This document shows positions 27,273 through 37,274 of a stretch of 43,625 nucleotides of DNA, in pieces. The position numbers and the translations under genes are program-made. The stretch's first letter is position 1. Every line of letters starts with the position of its first letter. The DNA is taken from positions 1-43,625 of the forward strand of contig JACREC010000129.1 of assembly GCA_016218445.1 (NCBI GenBank), in the 5' to 3' direction. The notes below the pieces were generated by a model, which saw nothing but the letters and a program-made list of their open reading frames with translations, was not told the DNA's origin and made no database searches. This DNA comes from Nitrosomonadales bacterium. GTDB taxonomy: Bacteria > Pseudomonadota > Gammaproteobacteria > Burkholderiales > Gallionellaceae.

Positions 27273-28985
27273 ATGAATATGGAACTGACGGGTGCGGAAA
27301 TAGCCATCAGGTGTTTGCAGGAGGAGGGGGTCGAGTACGTATTCGGCTACCCGGGCGGGGCTGTGCTGTTCATTTATGACGCGCTGTTCAATCAGGATAA
27401 GATCAAACACATTTTAGTCCGCCACGAGCAGGCCGCAGTGCACGCAGCCGATGGTTACGCGCGCTCTACCGACCGGGTGGGCGTCGCGCTGGTCACCTCG
27501 GGTCCGGGGGTGACCAATGCGGTCACCGGTATAGCGACTGCCTACATGGATTCCATCCCGCTGGTGATCATCAGCGGCCAGGTGCCGACGCGCGCTATCG
27601 GTGAGGATGCCTTCCAGGAGGTGGATGCTGTTGGCATTACGCGGCCATGCGTGAAGCACAATTTCCTGGTCAAGGATGTCAAGGAAATCGCGAATACCAT
27701 CAAGAAGGCTTTTTATCTTGCCAGGAGCGGACGCCCCGGCCCCGTGCTGGTGGATATTCCCAAGGACGTTTCGAACCAGAAAACGGAATTTCATTACCCG
27801 GCTACGGTGAGCGTCCGCTCCTACCACCCGGCGCAGCATGGTGAAGTGGGGCTAGTCAAGCAAGCCGCGCAGTTGTTGCTGGGAGCCAGGCGGCCCATGG
27901 TTTACGCCGGTGGCGGAGTGGTGTTGTCCGATGCCTCCAAGCAATTGACTGAGCTGGTGCGCCTGCTGGGTTTCCCCTGCACCAACACCCTGATGGGTTT
28001 GGGTGGTTATCCGGCAACGGACAAACAGTCTCTCGGCATGCCGGGCATGCACGGCACGCTGGAAGCCAATATGGCGATGCAGCATTGCGATGTGCTGCTG
28101 GCCGTGGGCGCGCGCTTCGACGACCGCGTGATCGGCAACGTGGAGCACTTCAACCGGGAAAAACGCAACATCATCCACATCGACATTGATCCTTCCTCCA
28201 TTTCCAAGCGCGTCAAGGTGGATGTGCCCATTGTCGGTGACGTGGCGCATGTGCTGGGGGATCTGCTGGCGGTGTTGCATGGCAGCAAGCAAAAACCCGA
28301 GCCGCAGGCACTTGCGGCGTGGTGGGCGCAGATCGAGGAATGGCGCGGCAAGCGTTGCCTGGGCTATAAAAATTCGGATGAAATCATCAAGCCGCAATTC
28401 GTGATCGAAAAATTGTATGAGGTCACCCGTGGCGATGCCTTCATCACCTCCGATGTCGGGCAGCACCAGATGTGGACGGCGCAATATTACAAATTCGACC
28501 AGCCGCGCCGCTGGATCAATTCCGGCGGCTTGGGCACCATGGGCTTCGGCATGCCTGCCGCGATGGGCGTGCAGATGGCCCATCCCGATGCGACCGTCGC
28601 CTGCGTGACCGGCGAGGGCAGCATCCAGATGAACATCCAGGAATTGTCCACCTGCAAGCAGTTCCGGTTGCCGCTCAAGATCGTGTTGTTGAACAACCGT
28701 TATCTGGGCATGGTGCGGCAGTGGCAGGAATTTTTCCACGGCAACCGCTATTCCGAATCTTACATGGAGGCGCTGCCCGATTTCGTGAAGCTGGCGGAAG
28801 CCTACGGCCACGTAGGCATGCGCATCGACAAGCCTTCGGATGTGGAACCGGCTCTGAAGGAAGCGTTTGCGCGCAAGCATGACCTGGTGTTCATGGATTT
28901 CAGGACCGACCAGACGGAAAACGTGTTCCCCATGGTACCCGGCGGCAAGGGCTTGTCCGAAGTGATACTGGCGGAGGAGCTATAA
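27273..28985 (+). CDS. ilvB: Acetolactate synthase large subunit
   Basis: MNMELTGAEIAIRCLQEEGVEYVFGYPGGAVLFIYDAL; TPP-binding region GEGSIQMNIQELSTC. Confidence 0.95.
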   Translation: MNMELTGAEIAIRCLQEEGVEYVFGYPGGAVLFIYDALFNQDKIKHILVRHEQAAVHAADGYARSTDRVGVALVTSGPGVTNAVTGIATAYMDSIPLVIISGQVPTRAIGEDAFQEVDAVGITRPCVKHNFLVKDVKEIANTIKKAFYLARSGRPGPVLVDIPKDVSNQKTEFHYPATVSVRSYHPAQHGEVGLVKQAAQLLLGARRPMVYAGGGVVLSDASKQLTELVRLLGFPCTNTLMGLGGYPATDKQSLGMPGMHGTLEANMAMQHCDVLLAVGARFDDRVIGNVEHFNREKRNIIHIDIDPSSISKRVKVDVPIVGDVAHVLGDLLAVLHGSKQKPEPQALAAWWAQIEEWRGKRCLGYKNSDEIIKPQFVIEKLYEVTRGDAFITSDVGQHQMWTAQYYKFDQPRRWINSGGLGTMGFGMPAAMGVQMAHPDATVACVTGEGSIQMNIQELSTCKQFRLPLKIVLLNNRYLGMVRQWQEFFHGNRYSESYMEALPDFVKLAEAYGHVGMRIDKPSDVEPALKEAFARKHDLVFMDFRTDQTENVFPMVPGGKGLSEVILAEEL

Positions 28986-29477
28986 ATGCGGCACATCATC
29001 TCCCTGCTGATGGAAAACGAGGCGGGTGCGCTGTCGCGTGTCGCCGGGCTATTCTCGGCGCGCGGTTACAACATCGAATCGCTCTCCGTGGCACCCACCG
29101 AAGATGCCACCCTGTCGCGCATGACCATTGTGACCAGCGGTTCGGACGACGTGATCGAACAGATTATCAAGCAGCTCAACAAGCTGATTGAGGTAGTCAC
29201 GGTGATGGATTTGAGCGAAGGAGAGCATATCGAGCGCGAATTGATGCTGGTCAAAGTGCGTGCGGTGGGCGAGATGCGCGAGGAAATGGCGCGCATAGCC
29301 GGCATCTTCCACGGGCGCATCATAGACGTCTCCGACAAGACTTACACCATCGAGCTGACCGACACCGTCTCCGGCCTGGACAGTTTCCTGCAAGCCATAG
29401 ACCGCAGCCTGATCCTGGAAACCGTGCGCACCGGCGCATCCGGCATCGGGCGTGGCGACAGGGTTTTGAAGCTTTGA
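28986..29477 (+). CDS. ilvH: Acetolactate synthase small subunit
   Basis: MRHIISLLMENEAGALSRVAGLFSARGYNIESLSVAPTED ACT domain. Confidence 0.96.
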   Translation: MRHIISLLMENEAGALSRVAGLFSARGYNIESLSVAPTEDATLSRMTIVTSGSDDVIEQIIKQLNKLIEVVTVMDLSEGEHIERELMLVKVRAVGEMREEMARIAGIFHGRIIDVSDKTYTIELTDTVSGLDSFLQAIDRSLILETVRTGASGIGRGDRVLKL

Positions 29478-29480
29478 ATG

Positions 29481-30615
<1,135 letters not shown>

Positions 30616-30726
30616 CCGTAAGTTGGAAGACGTAAGTTGTTAGTTAAGGCCAGCTTCGACTAGCAACTTATGTCTTCAGTTGTAACTTATGTATCCAACT
30701 CCCTACTTACGTCTTCCGACTACCAA
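30616..30726 (+). repeat. Heptad-stuttered inverted repeat H4 between ilvC and psd
   Basis: CCGTAAG TTGGAAG ACGTAAG TTGTTAG ... CTAGCAA CTTATGT CTTCAGT ... CTTACGT CTTCCGA CTACCAA. Confidence 0.82.
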
Positions 30727-30734
30727 CTGCATTT

Positions 30735-31370
30735 ATGAACTATCCCCACCCCATCATCGCCCGCGAGGGCTGGCCATTCCTGGCGATTGCGCTGGCGCTG
30801 GCCGCCGCTGTCACCGTCTGGTGTGCCACATGGTCCATTCCATTGTGGATCATCGCGCTATTCGTGCTGCAATTTTTCCGCGATCCGGCGCGCGCGATTC
30901 CGCAAGACGCGGGCGCGGTGCTGTCTCCGGCGGATGGCCGCATCGTGGCGGTGGAGCGTGTCAATGATCCTTACGTGCAGCGCGATGCCATCAAGGTCAG
31001 CGTGTTCATGAACGTGTTCAACGTGCATTCCAACCGCAGCCCGGTGGACGGCACGGTGCAGCGCGTGCAGTATTTTCCGGGCAAATTCGTGAATGCCGAT
31101 CTGGACAAGGCCTCACTGGAGAACGAGCGCAATGCCGTATGGCTCAGGACGACAGATGGGCAGGATATCACCAGCGTGCAGGTGGCCGGTCTGATTGCGC
31201 GGCGCATCCTGTGCTACGTGAAAGCGGGTGACGTCCTTGCACGCGGACAACGTTATGGTTTCATCCGTTTCGGTTCGCGCGTGGATGTGTACCTGCCGCT
31301 GACGGCTTCCGTCAAGGTTGCCATTGGTGATAAAGTGTCTGCCACGACCACCATTCTGGCGCAGCTTTGA
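30735..31370 (+). CDS. psd: Phosphatidylserine decarboxylase proenzyme
   Basis: [13 protein letters not shown]-like N-terminus, [30 protein letters not shown] cleavage motif. Confidence 0.95.
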
Positions 31371-31372
31371 TT

Positions 31373-32137
31373 ATGCCCGAACTGAACAACCGTAAGCCCC
31401 TGGACCTGCGTAGGCGCGGCATTTACCTGCTGCCCAACCTGTTCACCCCGGCGGCATTGTTTGCCGGGTTTTATGCCATCGTGCAGGCGATGAACGGCAA
31501 GTTCGAACATGCGGCAGTGGCGATTTTCATCGCCATGATCATGGACGGTCTGGATGGCCGTGTGGCGCGCCTGACCCATACCCAGAGCGAATTCGGCGCG
31601 CAGTATGACAGCCTGTCCGACATGGTGTCATTCGGCGTTGCCCCCGCGCTGATTGCTTACGAATGGTCATTGAAGGGGCTGGGCAAGTGGGGCTGGTTTG
31701 CGGCCTTCATCTATTGCGCGGGCACCGCCTTGCGCCTGGCGCGCTTCAACACCAACATAGACGTGGTTGACAAGTACAGCTTCCAGGGGCTGCCCAGCCC
31801 TGCCGCCGCCGCGCTGGTGGCGAGTTTCATCTGGGTGATGCTGGACAACCATTTCACCGGGCACGAATTGCGCTGGTACGTCTGCGCATTGACCGTCTTC
31901 GCCGGCATCACCATGGTGAGCAACCTGAAGTATTACAGTTTCAAGGCGGTCAACATGCGTAAGAGCGTGCCGTTCATCGTAGTCTTCCTGTTCGCGTTGT
32001 TTTTCATTTTTGTGTCGGTTGACCCGCCCAGCATCCTGTTCCTGCTGTTTTTCGGCTATAGCCTGTCAGGCTATGTGATGCATATATGGTCGCTGCGCAA
32101 AAAGAATAATGGCGCTTCGCCCGGTGTTGCGCCCTGA
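31373..32137 (+). CDS. pssA: CDP-diacylglycerol-serine O-phosphatidyltransferase
   Basis: CDP-alcohol motif DGLDGRVARLTHTQSEFGAQYDSLSDMVSFGVAPA. Confidence 0.95.
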   Translation: MPELNNRKPLDLRRRGIYLLPNLFTPAALFAGFYAIVQAMNGKFEHAAVAIFIAMIMDGLDGRVARLTHTQSEFGAQYDSLSDMVSFGVAPALIAYEWSLKGLGKWGWFAAFIYCAGTALRLARFNTNIDVVDKYSFQGLPSPAAAALVASFIWVMLDNHFTGHELRWYVCALTVFAGITMVSNLKYYSFKAVNMRKSVPFIVVFLFALFFIFVSVDPPSILFLLFFGYSLSGYVMHIWSLRKKNNGASPGVAP

Positions 32138-32162
32138 AACAAAAGCCGTTATATTCCGTTCC

Positions 32163-32240
32163 ATGCACTTCTCTACACACATCGCACAACTTCATTCCAC
32201 GTTCAGCCTGCTGGCTGCACTGCTGCTGCAACAAAATTAG
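32163..32240 (+). CDS. Putative leucine-rich leader peptide upstream of leuA
   Basis: 25-aa ORF MHFSTHIAQLHSTFSLLAALLLQQN* with CTG CTG GCT GCA CTG CTG CTG; followed by hairpin at 32247-32270. Confidence 0.6.
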   Translation: MHFSTHIAQLHSTFSLLAALLLQQN

Positions 32241-32376
32241 GCACTTCACTATCGCCTGATAGGCGATGTGGAATTGACACCGCCTCGCGCGCTAATCCTG
32301 TTCTCCACAAGTTTGAAGCAAGCGTGGCAACCGCATTGGTTCCGCAGGTTAAACCTATTTTGCAACGGAGTTAAGC

Positions 32377-33912
32377 ATGAAAGACAAATTGATAATTTTT
32401 GACACCACCTTGCGCGATGGCGAACAAAGCCCCGGTGCGTCCATGACCAAGGAAGAGAAAATCCGCATTGCGCGGCAACTGGAAAAGCTCGGCGTGGATG
32501 TCATCGAGGCGGGGTTTGCCGCCGCCAGTCCGGGCGATGCCGACGCAATACAAAGCGTCGCGAGGGTCATCGAGCATTCCACGGTTTGCTCACTGGCGCG
32601 CGCCAACGAGCGCGACGTGCGCGCTGCGGGCGAGGCGATCAAGCCGGCCAAATCCGGCCGTATCCACACCTTTATCGCCACTTCACCCATCCACATGGAA
32701 AAGAAGTTGCGCATGACGCCGGACCAGGTGGTGGATGCGGCGGTGAAGGCGGTGAAGCTCGCGCTGGAATATACCGATGACGTGGAGTTTTCCGCCGAGG
32801 ACGCGGTGCGCTCGGAAATGGATTTTCTGGTGCGCGTCTTCGACGCGGTGATCCGGGCCGGCGCCAGGACACTCAACGTGCCGGACACCGTCGGTTACAG
32901 CATCCCGGCCTTGTGGGGCGAGCGCATCCGGCAGCTGATCGAGCGTGTGCCGAACAGTAACCGGGTGGTGTGGTCCACCCATTGCCACAACGACCTCGGC
33001 ATGGCCGTGGCCAATTCGCTCGCCGCCGTGATGAACGGCGCGCGCCAGGTGGAATGCACCATCAACGGCCTCGGCGAGCGTGCCGGCAACGCCAGCCTGG
33101 AAGAAATCGTGATGGCGGTGAAGACGCGCCGCGACGTGTTCACCTGCGACTCGCGCATAGACACCGCGCAGATCGTGCCGACCTCCAAGCTGGTGTCGAG
33201 CATCACCGGTTACCCGGTGCAGCCGAACAAGGCCATCGTCGGCGCGAACGCGTTCGCGCATGAATCCGGCATCCATCAGGATGGCGTGCTCAAGCACCGC
33301 GAGACCTATGAAATCATGCGCGCCGAGGACGTGGGCTGGAGCACGAATAAATTGACGCTGGGCAAGCTCTCCGGCCGCAATGCTTTCCGCACGCGCTTGC
33401 AGGAACTCGGCATCGTGCTGGAAAGCGAGGAAGCGTTGAATGCGGCCTTTGCGCGCTTCAAGGACCTGGCAGACCGCAAGTCGGAAATATTCGATGAGGA
33501 TTTGCAGGCGCTGGTCAACGAGGAAACCGTGGCGCATGTCAGCGAGCATTACCGCCTGGTGTCCATGCGCGCCCATTCCGAAACCGGCATCTTGCCCGAG
33601 GCACGGGTGGTGTTGAGTGTGGGCGGGCAGGAGCGCAAAGCCGAGATGCAGGGTGGCGGCCCGGTGGATGCCACGTTCAAGGCCATTGAACAGATCGTGC
33701 AGAGCGGCACCGAGCTGCTGTTGTATTCGGTGAACAACATCACCAGCGGCACCGATGCGCAGGGCGAAGTGACGGTGCGCCTGGCCAAGGGCGGGCGCAT
33801 CGTGAACGGGCAGGGCGCGGATACCGACATCGTGGTGGCTTCCGCCAAGGCGTATCTCAACGCGCTGAACAAGCTGCACGGCAAATTGGAGCGCGCCCAC
33901 CCGCAGTTGTGA
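32377..33912 (+). CDS. leuA: 2-isopropylmalate synthase
   Basis: [63 protein letters not shown]. Confidence 0.97.
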
Positions 33913-34009: not shown

Positions 34010-35080
34010 TTGAAGAAAATTTTGTTGAGTTCCGCGTTTCTACTGGCTTCACTGGCTGCCAATGCAAGCTGGGCCGAGTGCTGGATCATTCCGAAGTCGC
34101 AATGCCCGCATGCTGAGCTATCAGGTAGAAATCTGGTTGGCGCTGATATGCATGGAGCATATATGTTTGAGGGCGATCTGACCAAGGCCGACTTTTCCAA
34201 GGCTAATCTCAAGGAGGCGAATATTTATCACGGCAAGCTGATGGGCGGCAATTTTACCGAAGCGGACATGACCGACATCACGCTGTATAACGCCGACCTG
34301 ACCGGCGCCAACCTGACCGGAGCGAATATGACGCGCGCCAAACTCAAGGGCGCAAATCTCAGCGAGGTTAATTTGACCGACACTAATTTTACCGATGCAG
34401 AGATTGACGGTGCAAAGTTCAACAAGGCTGTTTTTTGCCGTACCACAATGCCGAATGGCATCGTGAATAGCGGCGCGAACTGTCCCGCCAAGAAAACTGA
34501 AAAAACTGCCAGAGCCGAGCAGGCAGAAGTCGTGGAGAATGCCATCAATGGCTGCGTGATCCAGCCGCGCACGGTATGCATGAATGCTGCGCTGGCCGAG
34601 GCCAATCTGGGTTCTGCCAATCTTTCCGGCGCACAGCTATACATGGGCAATCTCGCGCAAGCCAACCTGTTCAAGGCCAACCTCGGCAAGGCTAATTTGA
34701 CCGAGGCCAATCTGACCCATGCCAATCTGACCCGTGCCAACCTGTCGCAAACCAACCTGACCGAGGCCAACCTGAACAAGGCGACGTTGCGCGGCGCGCA
34801 ACTGGAGCGCGCCAATCTGACCGGCGCGATTCTGCTGAATGCCGACCTGACCGATGCCGACCTGACCGGCGCCAATATTGCCGAAACCACGCTGACTGGA
34901 GCGACTTTATGCAATACGGTCATGCCCAACGGCACGGTGAACAACAGCAGTTGCATGCCTGAAAAAAAACCAGAAGCGATTACTGAACCGGTGAAGATCG
35001 AACCCGTGAAAATCGAGCCGACCGTACCGGAAATCAAGCCGGCTCAGCCAGCGGCAAAAGTAAAGACCAAGAGCAGGTAA
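34010..35080 (+). CDS. Secreted pentapeptide-repeat protein with two repeat modules
   Basis: TTG start, signal peptide, tandem A(N/D)LxxA repeats; both modules end in xCxTxMPNGxVNxxxxC. Confidence 0.9.
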   Translation: MKKILLSSAFLLASLAANASWAECWIIPKSQCPHAELSGRNLVGADMHGAYMFEGDLTKADFSKANLKEANIYHGKLMGGNFTEADMTDITLYNADLTGANLTGANMTRAKLKGANLSEVNLTDTNFTDAEIDGAKFNKAVFCRTTMPNGIVNSGANCPAKKTEKTARAEQAEVVENAINGCVIQPRTVCMNAALAEANLGSANLSGAQLYMGNLAQANLFKANLGKANLTEANLTHANLTRANLSQTNLTEANLNKATLRGAQLERANLTGAILLNADLTDADLTGANIAETTLTGATLCNTVMPNGTVNNSSCMPEKKPEAITEPVKIEPVKIEPTVPEIKPAQPAAKVKTKSR

Positions 35081-35101
35081 TCAGCCGGCAGGATAAAGGG
35101 C

Positions 35102-35132
35102 AAGGGCACGCAGCGCGTGCCCTTTATTTTTG
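35102..35132 (+). terminator. Rho-independent terminator after pentapeptide gene
   Basis: AAGGGCACGC-AGC-GCGTGCCCTT then TATTTTTGTT. Confidence 0.88.
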
Positions 35133-35204
35133 TTGCGGAAATAAATCGGCCAATGAAAGAAATGCCGGTAGCGGGTGTTATTTAAGCTGAGAGTTTCAAC
35201 GCGG

Positions 35205-35315
35205 TCAGCGCAAGCCGCCCGCTTGCTTGATGCCGCGTGCAATGAGTTCCGCCATTTGGCGCGTGGCGCAACGCTGGCTGTAGTACAGCACCAGAATTTC
35301 TTTGTCGGTTATCAT
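35205..35315 (-). pseudogene. Truncated wrbA-like NAD(P)H:quinone oxidoreductase relic
   Basis: Minus-strand 36-aa ORF MITDKEILVLYYSQRCATRQMAELIARGIKQAGGLR* matches a WrbA N-terminal flavodoxin motif; the rest of the gene is absent. Confidence 0.7.
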
Positions 35316-35399
35316 GTGCTGGTTATAAGGGCTTTCGCACAAATGCCGTGCCTGGCGATGCTTCATCGAAAGCGGTTCAAAATCTAAGGCGGGTTAATC

Positions 35400-36629
35400 A
35401 TGCAAGAGAATTGGCGGAACCTTCTGAATTTCATGCGCTTCATTGTGATGCGCTTCCACCAGGATCGCTGCATACAGATTGCGGCAAGCCTGACTTTTAC
35501 CACGCTGCTGTCGCTGGTGCCATTGATCACCATCGCACTGACGATGTTCTCGGCATTCCCGGTGTTCGAGGATTTTTCCAACCAGATCAAGGCTTACTTG
35601 GTTAACAACCTGATGCCGAATATGGCGGGGAAAGTTATTACGCAATATATGCAGCAGTTCACCGAGAGCGCGATGCGCCTGACGGCGGTTGGCATCGTGT
35701 TTCTTGCGGTGACGGCCATGCTGATGATGCTGACTATAGACCATGCATTCAACACCATCTGGAGGATATCCCGTCCGCGGCCATTGCTCAAACGGCTGAT
35801 TGTTTACTGGGCGGTACTCACTCTCACGCCGTTGCTCATCGGTGCGAGCCTGTCATTGACCTCATGGCTGGTTGGATTGTCGATGGGTTATGTCAAGCAG
35901 ATTCCGATATTCGGCGTGGGCGCGCTGAAAATATTGCCGGCGCTGTTTACCACATTGGCGTTCACCATGTTGTTCGAGCTGGTGCCGAATCGCTATGTGC
36001 CGCGCATGCACGCGCTAATCGGCGCGGTCGCGGCCGCAATCGTTTTCGAATCCATGAACCGCGTGTTCGGCTACTACATCAGCCATTTTCCAACTTACAA
36101 GCTGGTATATGGCGCGTTCGCCAGCGTGCCGGTTTTTCTGATGTGGATTTACCTGTCCTGGCTGACCATTCTGGTCGGCGCGGTGATCGCGGCATCATTG
36201 TCGCATTGGCGCGCTCCTGCAGCACAGCAGCTACCACCCGCCGCCCAATTGCTGGACGCGCTGCGCGTGTTACAAATCATGGTAAGTGGTTTGCAACAGG
36301 GCAGGGTGAGCACTTTCCCGGAATTGTCCAGGTCTTTGCATCTTGGCTATGACGTGCTGGAAAAAATTCTTGAAAAGCTGGCAAATGCCGATATGGTGCG
36401 CAAGGCAGAGGGGCAGGGCTGGCTGCTAATGCGCGATGCGCAACACGTGCAATTGGCTGAGCTGTACCGCCTGTTCGTGTTCGACCCGTCCATGCTGGCC
36501 GCGCAGGATGATGATGCGGAAATCCATGCGTGGCTCGGGCAAATTGAGCGGCGTGTGGCGGATGCGACGGCGGTTACGCTGCATGACCTGTTCACCGGGA
36601 CGGGCAGCCATGGCCCGAATGTTTCATGA
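35400..36629 (+). CDS. YihY/RNase BN-family inner membrane protein
   Basis: QIAASLTFTTLLSLVPLITIALTMFSAFPVF, LTPLLIGASL, YGAFASVPVFLMWIYLSWLTILVGAVIAASL. Confidence 0.93.
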   Translation: MQENWRNLLNFMRFIVMRFHQDRCIQIAASLTFTTLLSLVPLITIALTMFSAFPVFEDFSNQIKAYLVNNLMPNMAGKVITQYMQQFTESAMRLTAVGIVFLAVTAMLMMLTIDHAFNTIWRISRPRPLLKRLIVYWAVLTLTPLLIGASLSLTSWLVGLSMGYVKQIPIFGVGALKILPALFTTLAFTMLFELVPNRYVPRMHALIGAVAAAIVFESMNRVFGYYISHFPTYKLVYGAFASVPVFLMWIYLSWLTILVGAVIAASLSHWRAPAAQQLPPAAQLLDALRVLQIMVSGLQQGRVSTFPELSRSLHLGYDVLEKILEKLANADMVRKAEGQGWLLMRDAQHVQLAELYRLFVFDPSMLAAQDDDAEIHAWLGQIERRVADATAVTLHDLFTGTGSHGPNVS

Positions 36630-36762: not shown

Positions 36763-37152
36763 ATGATTCGCACTGGAAAACCCGGCGGCTGGACATTCGC
36801 CGCGCTGGTCACCGCCATCCTGGGCGGTGGCGGCCTTGCATACCTTGATCGAGCCGATTCGGCGCAGCCTCCGGCACTCGCCACACAGCATGAGCAGGCT
36901 GGTGTTGAAGCGGAGCCAATCACGCCCCTGCCCTTGGCAATGTCTCTCGATAACAGGAAGGTTGAGCTTGGCCGCCGCCTGTTTCACGATGCGGGACTGT
37001 CTGGTGACGGCTCGGCAAAGACCCTGGAAGACGCAGTGCGGGTAATGGCTCGCTATCAGCTTGGCGAGCAGATCAGCACGGACGAATTGAAAAAGATCAT
37101 CGCATTCCTGCATACCCCGACCGGGGAATATCAGGGGAAACCACTCGAATGA
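36763..37152 (+). pseudogene. Cytochrome c peroxidase-like remnant lacking the heme-binding core
   Basis: N-terminal EPITPLPLAMSLDNRKVELGRRLFHDAGLSGDGS joined to C-terminal AKTLEDAVRVMARYQLGEQIS...FLHTPTGEYQGKPLE; no CxxCH motif. Confidence 0.75.
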
Positions 37153-37185
37153 AGCCAGATAATCCATTAAAGGAGAAACGTTGTT

Positions 37186-37243
37186 GTAGGAGCGCAACTT
37201 GTTGCGCGATTGCACTGAATCGCCCGATAAATCGGGCTCCTAC
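37186..37243. repeat. REP-like multi-stem palindrome (GTAGGAGC family)
   Basis: GTAGGAGC...GCTCCTAC outer arms; GCGCAACTTGTTGCGC and GCCCGATAAATCGGGC internal hairpins. Confidence 0.85.
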
Positions 37244-37274
37244 GGGGCATGAATAATCTAATGGACAATTTGGG

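Follow-up and report, generated by a model that had tools for sequence, protein, structure and literature searches.

The window analysed here, a stretch of 43,625 nucleotides, is contig C104 of a draft genome (1.92 Mb in 137 contigs, 85% complete) whose close relatives are Gallionellaceae MAGs. It contains a 129-aa open reading frame (ORF), running from ATG to TGA with the sequence quoted earlier, between genes for a BrkB-family membrane protein and a DAHL-PAS-GGDEF-EAL protein (Table 1). Residues 64-84 of the ORF resemble the start of CCP_MauG/MbnH-family proteins and residues 82-123 the C-terminal end of di-haem cytochrome c peroxidases (CCPs) of known structure; each part matches its own stretch of a single chain in 9qdt, 3o5c and 1iqc. 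No CxxCH is left in the 129 residues, so that both haem motifs are gone, and the match to PF03150 (17.0 bits) falls under the curated cut-off of 25.6 bits. Both ends are homologous to bacterial di-haem CCPs (PF03150 plus a C-terminal cytochrome c domain; 1iqc, 3o5c, 9qdt), from which the ORF differs in lacking both CxxCH motifs and 215 codons, and similarity to the MauG/MbnH di-haem enzymes is weak and confined to residues 49-85. Judged from its sequence, the ORF is a di-haem CCP of the bCCP/CcpA type in which the 5′ part of the gene has been joined in frame to the 3′ part, and its product, if made, could neither bind c-type haem nor have peroxidase activity.

Table 1. Features at the CCP locus of the window, with the evidence for each.
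Feature	Position	Strand	Evidence
Upstream BrkB-family membrane protein, Rrf2-like C-terminus	35400..36629	+	3′ end fused to CCP remnant in G002
Internally deleted di-haem CCP ORF, 129 aa, both CxxCH lost	36763..37152	+	ORF and ortholog alignment
Retained 5′ part, codons 1-84: N-terminal membrane-anchor-like segment and KVELGRRLFHDAGLSGDGS	36763..37014	+	57-64% aa identity to L034/L032 N-termini
Deletion junction GACGGCTCGG, formed by merging of the 10-bp direct repeats on either side of the missing 645 bp in relatives	37006..37015	+	Alignment and BLAST overlap
Retained 3′ part, codons 85-129 and stop: C-terminal helices AKTLEDAVRVMARYQLG...GKPLE	37015..37152	+	81-85% aa identity to L032/L034/G003 C-termini
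Inserted ~120-bp palindromic repeat element	37155..37274	.	Absent at this place in relatives; other copies in genome
Intact operon partner, DAHL-PAS-GGDEF-EAL protein, 841 aa	37275..39800	+	ATG overlaps CCP stop codon in relatives

Full-length orthologs of 343 aa are encoded in Gallionellaceae relatives, directly 5′ of the same DAHL-PAS-GGDEF-EAL gene. They include L034 (JAHFRA010000003; 343 aa counted from the matching start), L032 (JAIELH010000088) and, more distantly, L004 (G058) and L006 (G030). Each of these and L033 has two CxxCH motifs, as does the partial gene of G003, a member of the same genus, in which the CCP gene is split across the ends of contigs C266 and C121. A true truncation in G003 was rejected, since the fragments lie at contig ends with 36 bp in common; beyond these 36 bp, C266 ends in ~95 bp of other, unrelated sequence (L038, 1-95) and is probably chimeric there. 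The first 84-89 residues of the ORF share 57-64% identity with the N-termini of L034 and L032, and its last 48 residues (82-129) share 81-85% identity with L032, L034 and G003, a likeness that, at a syntenic locus, is far beyond chance on sequence grounds. The retained parts are orthologous to this gene, making the ORF a di-haem CCP by descent. L034 matches PF03150 with an E value of 3.6e-59 (200 bits) and the di-haem peroxidases of the PDB at 5.5e-92 (9qdt) to about 1e-65; its match to MauG (about 1e-22) is far weaker, indicating that the parent gene was a bCCP and not a MauG.

DNA alignment of the window with L034 and L032 revealed one clean gap of 645 bp, or 215 codons, between GGCTCG and GCAAAG, and the BLAST matches of the two halves of the ORF overlap at about 37005-37015, a stretch containing GACGGCTCGG. 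In relatives, GAYGGYTCGG occurs on both sides of the missing segment as two DGS codon runs, one before the first haem motif (GATGGCTCGG, e.g., in L034) and one before AKTLEDAV (GATGGTTCGG, in L032 and G003); this ~10-bp repeat is near-identical and imperfect in the relatives, and a single copy is left in the window. The preliminary description had proposed that N-terminal and C-terminal CCP segments were joined, with in-frame loss of both haem motifs, by recombination at repeated DGS codons. Alignment to full-length homologs bears out the joining and the loss and maps the junction to the repeat listed in Table 1, and both DGS runs of the relatives coincide with this in-frame junction, as the proposed recombination would predict. 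A single repeat copy at a junction is what slippage or illegitimate recombination between short repeats typically leaves behind. Because an in-frame outcome is expected by chance for one deletion in three, the in-frame state, owed solely to 645 being a multiple of three, needs no special explanation.

With these features, the ORF is very probably what a deletion has left of a di-haem CCP of the Gallionellaceae. Two direct repeats of ~10 bp, one preceding the first CxxCH and the other close to the end of the second haem domain, would have served as sites of replication slippage or illegitimate recombination. The 645 bp lost between them would have encoded both CxxCH motifs and almost all of the two cytochrome domains. 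This loss would be recent and would belong to a more general disappearance of the gene from the genus, which the presence of other di-haem CCPs may have made tolerable. As in bacterial pseudogenes formed by deletion between short direct repeats, relatives carry intact orthologs, a single clean deletion has removed essential active-site residues and a repeat of ~10 bp marks the junction; unlike the usual pseudogene of this kind, the relic is in frame and so is still an open reading frame. A relic of this type is almost certainly an ordinary kind of dead gene, and its 129-aa product is probably without function. The structure predicted for the product is poor (pLDDT 57, pTM 0.27), consisting of three short helices, and the Leu of FLHTLTGEY that is conserved in 27 of 27 homologs is a Pro in the window ORF. 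The locus also carries a warning for automatic annotation: family-like ends on an open frame do not make an enzyme.

The same gene has been lost in G002, a second species of the genus, in which the last 35 CCP codons (L013) follow directly on the 3′ end of the upstream BrkB gene, with an ATGGC microhomology at the join; the fusion gives BrkB a new C-terminus. The G002 deletion differs from that of the window and is larger, comprising nearly the whole CCP gene, and from their sequences the two appear to be independent events; alternatively, the G002 deletion may have arisen on an allele already carrying that of the window. Of the nine amino acids at which the two remnants differ, G002 has the derived state at eight and the window at one, the latter being the Leu-to-Pro change at the invariant site. 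Their pairwise dN/dS is 1.27 over the 35 CCP codons, as opposed to 0.27 over the adjacent GGDEF/EAL gene (dS 0.23). Given this ratio and the eight changes, the G002 remnant looks neutral and long dead. The C-terminus of the window ORF has a single amino acid change in 35 polarisable codons versus about nine expected had it been free to change since the split (Poisson P about 0.001), which over only 35 codons is compatible either with a recent deletion or with constraint on the fragment. This scarcity of changes and the frame left open over 129 codons count against a relic; the scarcity points to a recent deletion or, with lower probability, to constraint that has persisted, and we regard the relic as probably both recent and non-functional. 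If so, the locus neatly illustrates, on a small scale, a gene in the course of being lost, since within one genus three species have the peroxidase gene full-length, internally deleted in frame or almost gone, and the operon partner survives in all three.

An assembly artefact, in which a full-length gene was collapsed or a minority strain variant was assembled, could also yield such a frame, given that the genome is a draft in 137 contigs and 85% complete and that the relatives are MAGs. Strain mixtures can give pairs of intact and in-frame-deleted copies such as those of another CCP in G088 (96-98% DNA identity). This explanation is unlikely, however, because the repeat of ~10 bp is too short, being below the usual assembler k-mers, and too imperfect in the relatives to collapse a usual assembly. 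In addition, the contig extends a further 36 kb in one direction and 6 kb in the opposite one, with synteny to sister genomes on both sides where compared, the genome has no second copy of the gene, and G002 has lost the same gene. The G088 pair itself, from another family of the same order, consists of loci L060 (C283) and L061 (C399), one of them full-length and the other shortened in frame by 435 bp and left with one CxxCH, reflecting either a separate deletion or a strain mixture.

In L034, L032 and G003, the stop codon of the CCP gene and the start codon (ATG) of the partner gene overlap (GAATGAA), and the same pairing of a CCP with a DAHL-PAS-GGDEF-EAL protein is found in G058, G030 and G005. 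A di-haem peroxidase gene followed by a DAHL-PAS-GGDEF-EAL gene, with stop and start overlapping in several cases, is a conserved two-gene unit of the Gallionellaceae, and from this arrangement it is conceivable that peroxide handling is linked to c-di-GMP signalling. Of four papers that name Gallionella together with cytochrome c peroxidase, none deals with this gene, to judge from titles and the beginnings of abstracts, and a literature search on the function of DAHL domains found nothing. A scan of a viral collection with the GGDEF/EAL protein turned up nothing beyond a weak partial match. In the window, the ~120-bp element separates the CCP remnant from its partner, breaking the ATGA coupling of the relatives. 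The element has 15-nt terminal inverted repeats (37155-37169 and 37259-37273) and a palindromic core, GTAGGAGC...GCTCCTAC (37186-37243). Related copies are present on C76 (twice, one of them near-complete with 87% identity over 108 bp) and, as shorter matches, on C24, C46 and C5; no Y1 transposase (PF01797), a possible mover of such palindromic elements, was found in this genome.

The preliminary description had left the choice between a relic and a heme-free decoy, of which the relic is favoured and the decoy found no positive support. That selection maintains the short protein as a haem-free, membrane-anchored product, acting as a decoy or as a regulator of the neighbouring c-di-GMP enzyme, would agree with the open 129-codon frame, the little-changed C-terminus and the intact partner gene, but a recent deletion accounts equally well for the few changes. 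Moreover, a selected haem-free microprotein should be conserved in several genomes, whereas the short form is unique to the window among the listed matches from 158 family genomes. The sister species discarded nearly the whole gene and keeps its partner (88% identity) without any CCP beside it, and the substitution of an invariant Leu by Pro, the low-confidence fold and the broken ATGA coupling likewise speak against selection, leaving this explanation decidedly improbable. The narrower proposal that the fusion was adopted as a haem-free membrane-anchored partner or decoy of the DAHL-PAS-GGDEF-EAL protein itself is more doubtful still; if true, a peroxidase-signalling pair would have become a haem-free regulatory pair. 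Finally, there is next to no likelihood that the short form belongs to a distinct small CCP-like family, for which no point was found and which is contradicted by the syntenic full-length orthologs: a single orthologous gene at this locus matches the two ends of the ORF with its own two ends, and the listed matches from the 158 genomes include no further short relative of the same form.

The survey behind these comparisons found matches to the full-length protein in 82 of the 158 family genomes at E values no higher than 1e-40, and an internal deletion of this kind was seen in none of the matches listed for the full-length query; frames below 318 aa among these matches (G003 and G005) were cut by contig ends. 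Of the short CCP-like frames checked in relatives, L013 of G002 is a real remnant and L031 of G088 is a separate in-frame deletion. The window genome encodes two complete di-haem CCP paralogs, on contigs C14 (404 aa) and C77 (372 aa). An apparent ortholog of the C14 paralog (78% identity) is present in G002, and no PF03150 match other than the full-length gene was found in G003, a pattern that in these three genomes only is compatible with redundancy.

Upstream of the relic, the window diverges from its sister genomes over BrkB codons 1-350, where dS to G002 and G003 is about 0.5 to >1 and the two sisters are close to each other (about 0.25). Over the last ~50 BrkB codons and the DNA at 27582-33912, the window is again close to both. 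In G003, no counterpart of the pentapeptide-repeat gene at 34010-35080 lies between the genes that flank it in the window. From these sequence distances, positions 34010-36450 look like a replaced tract, perhaps including the pentapeptide-repeat gene.
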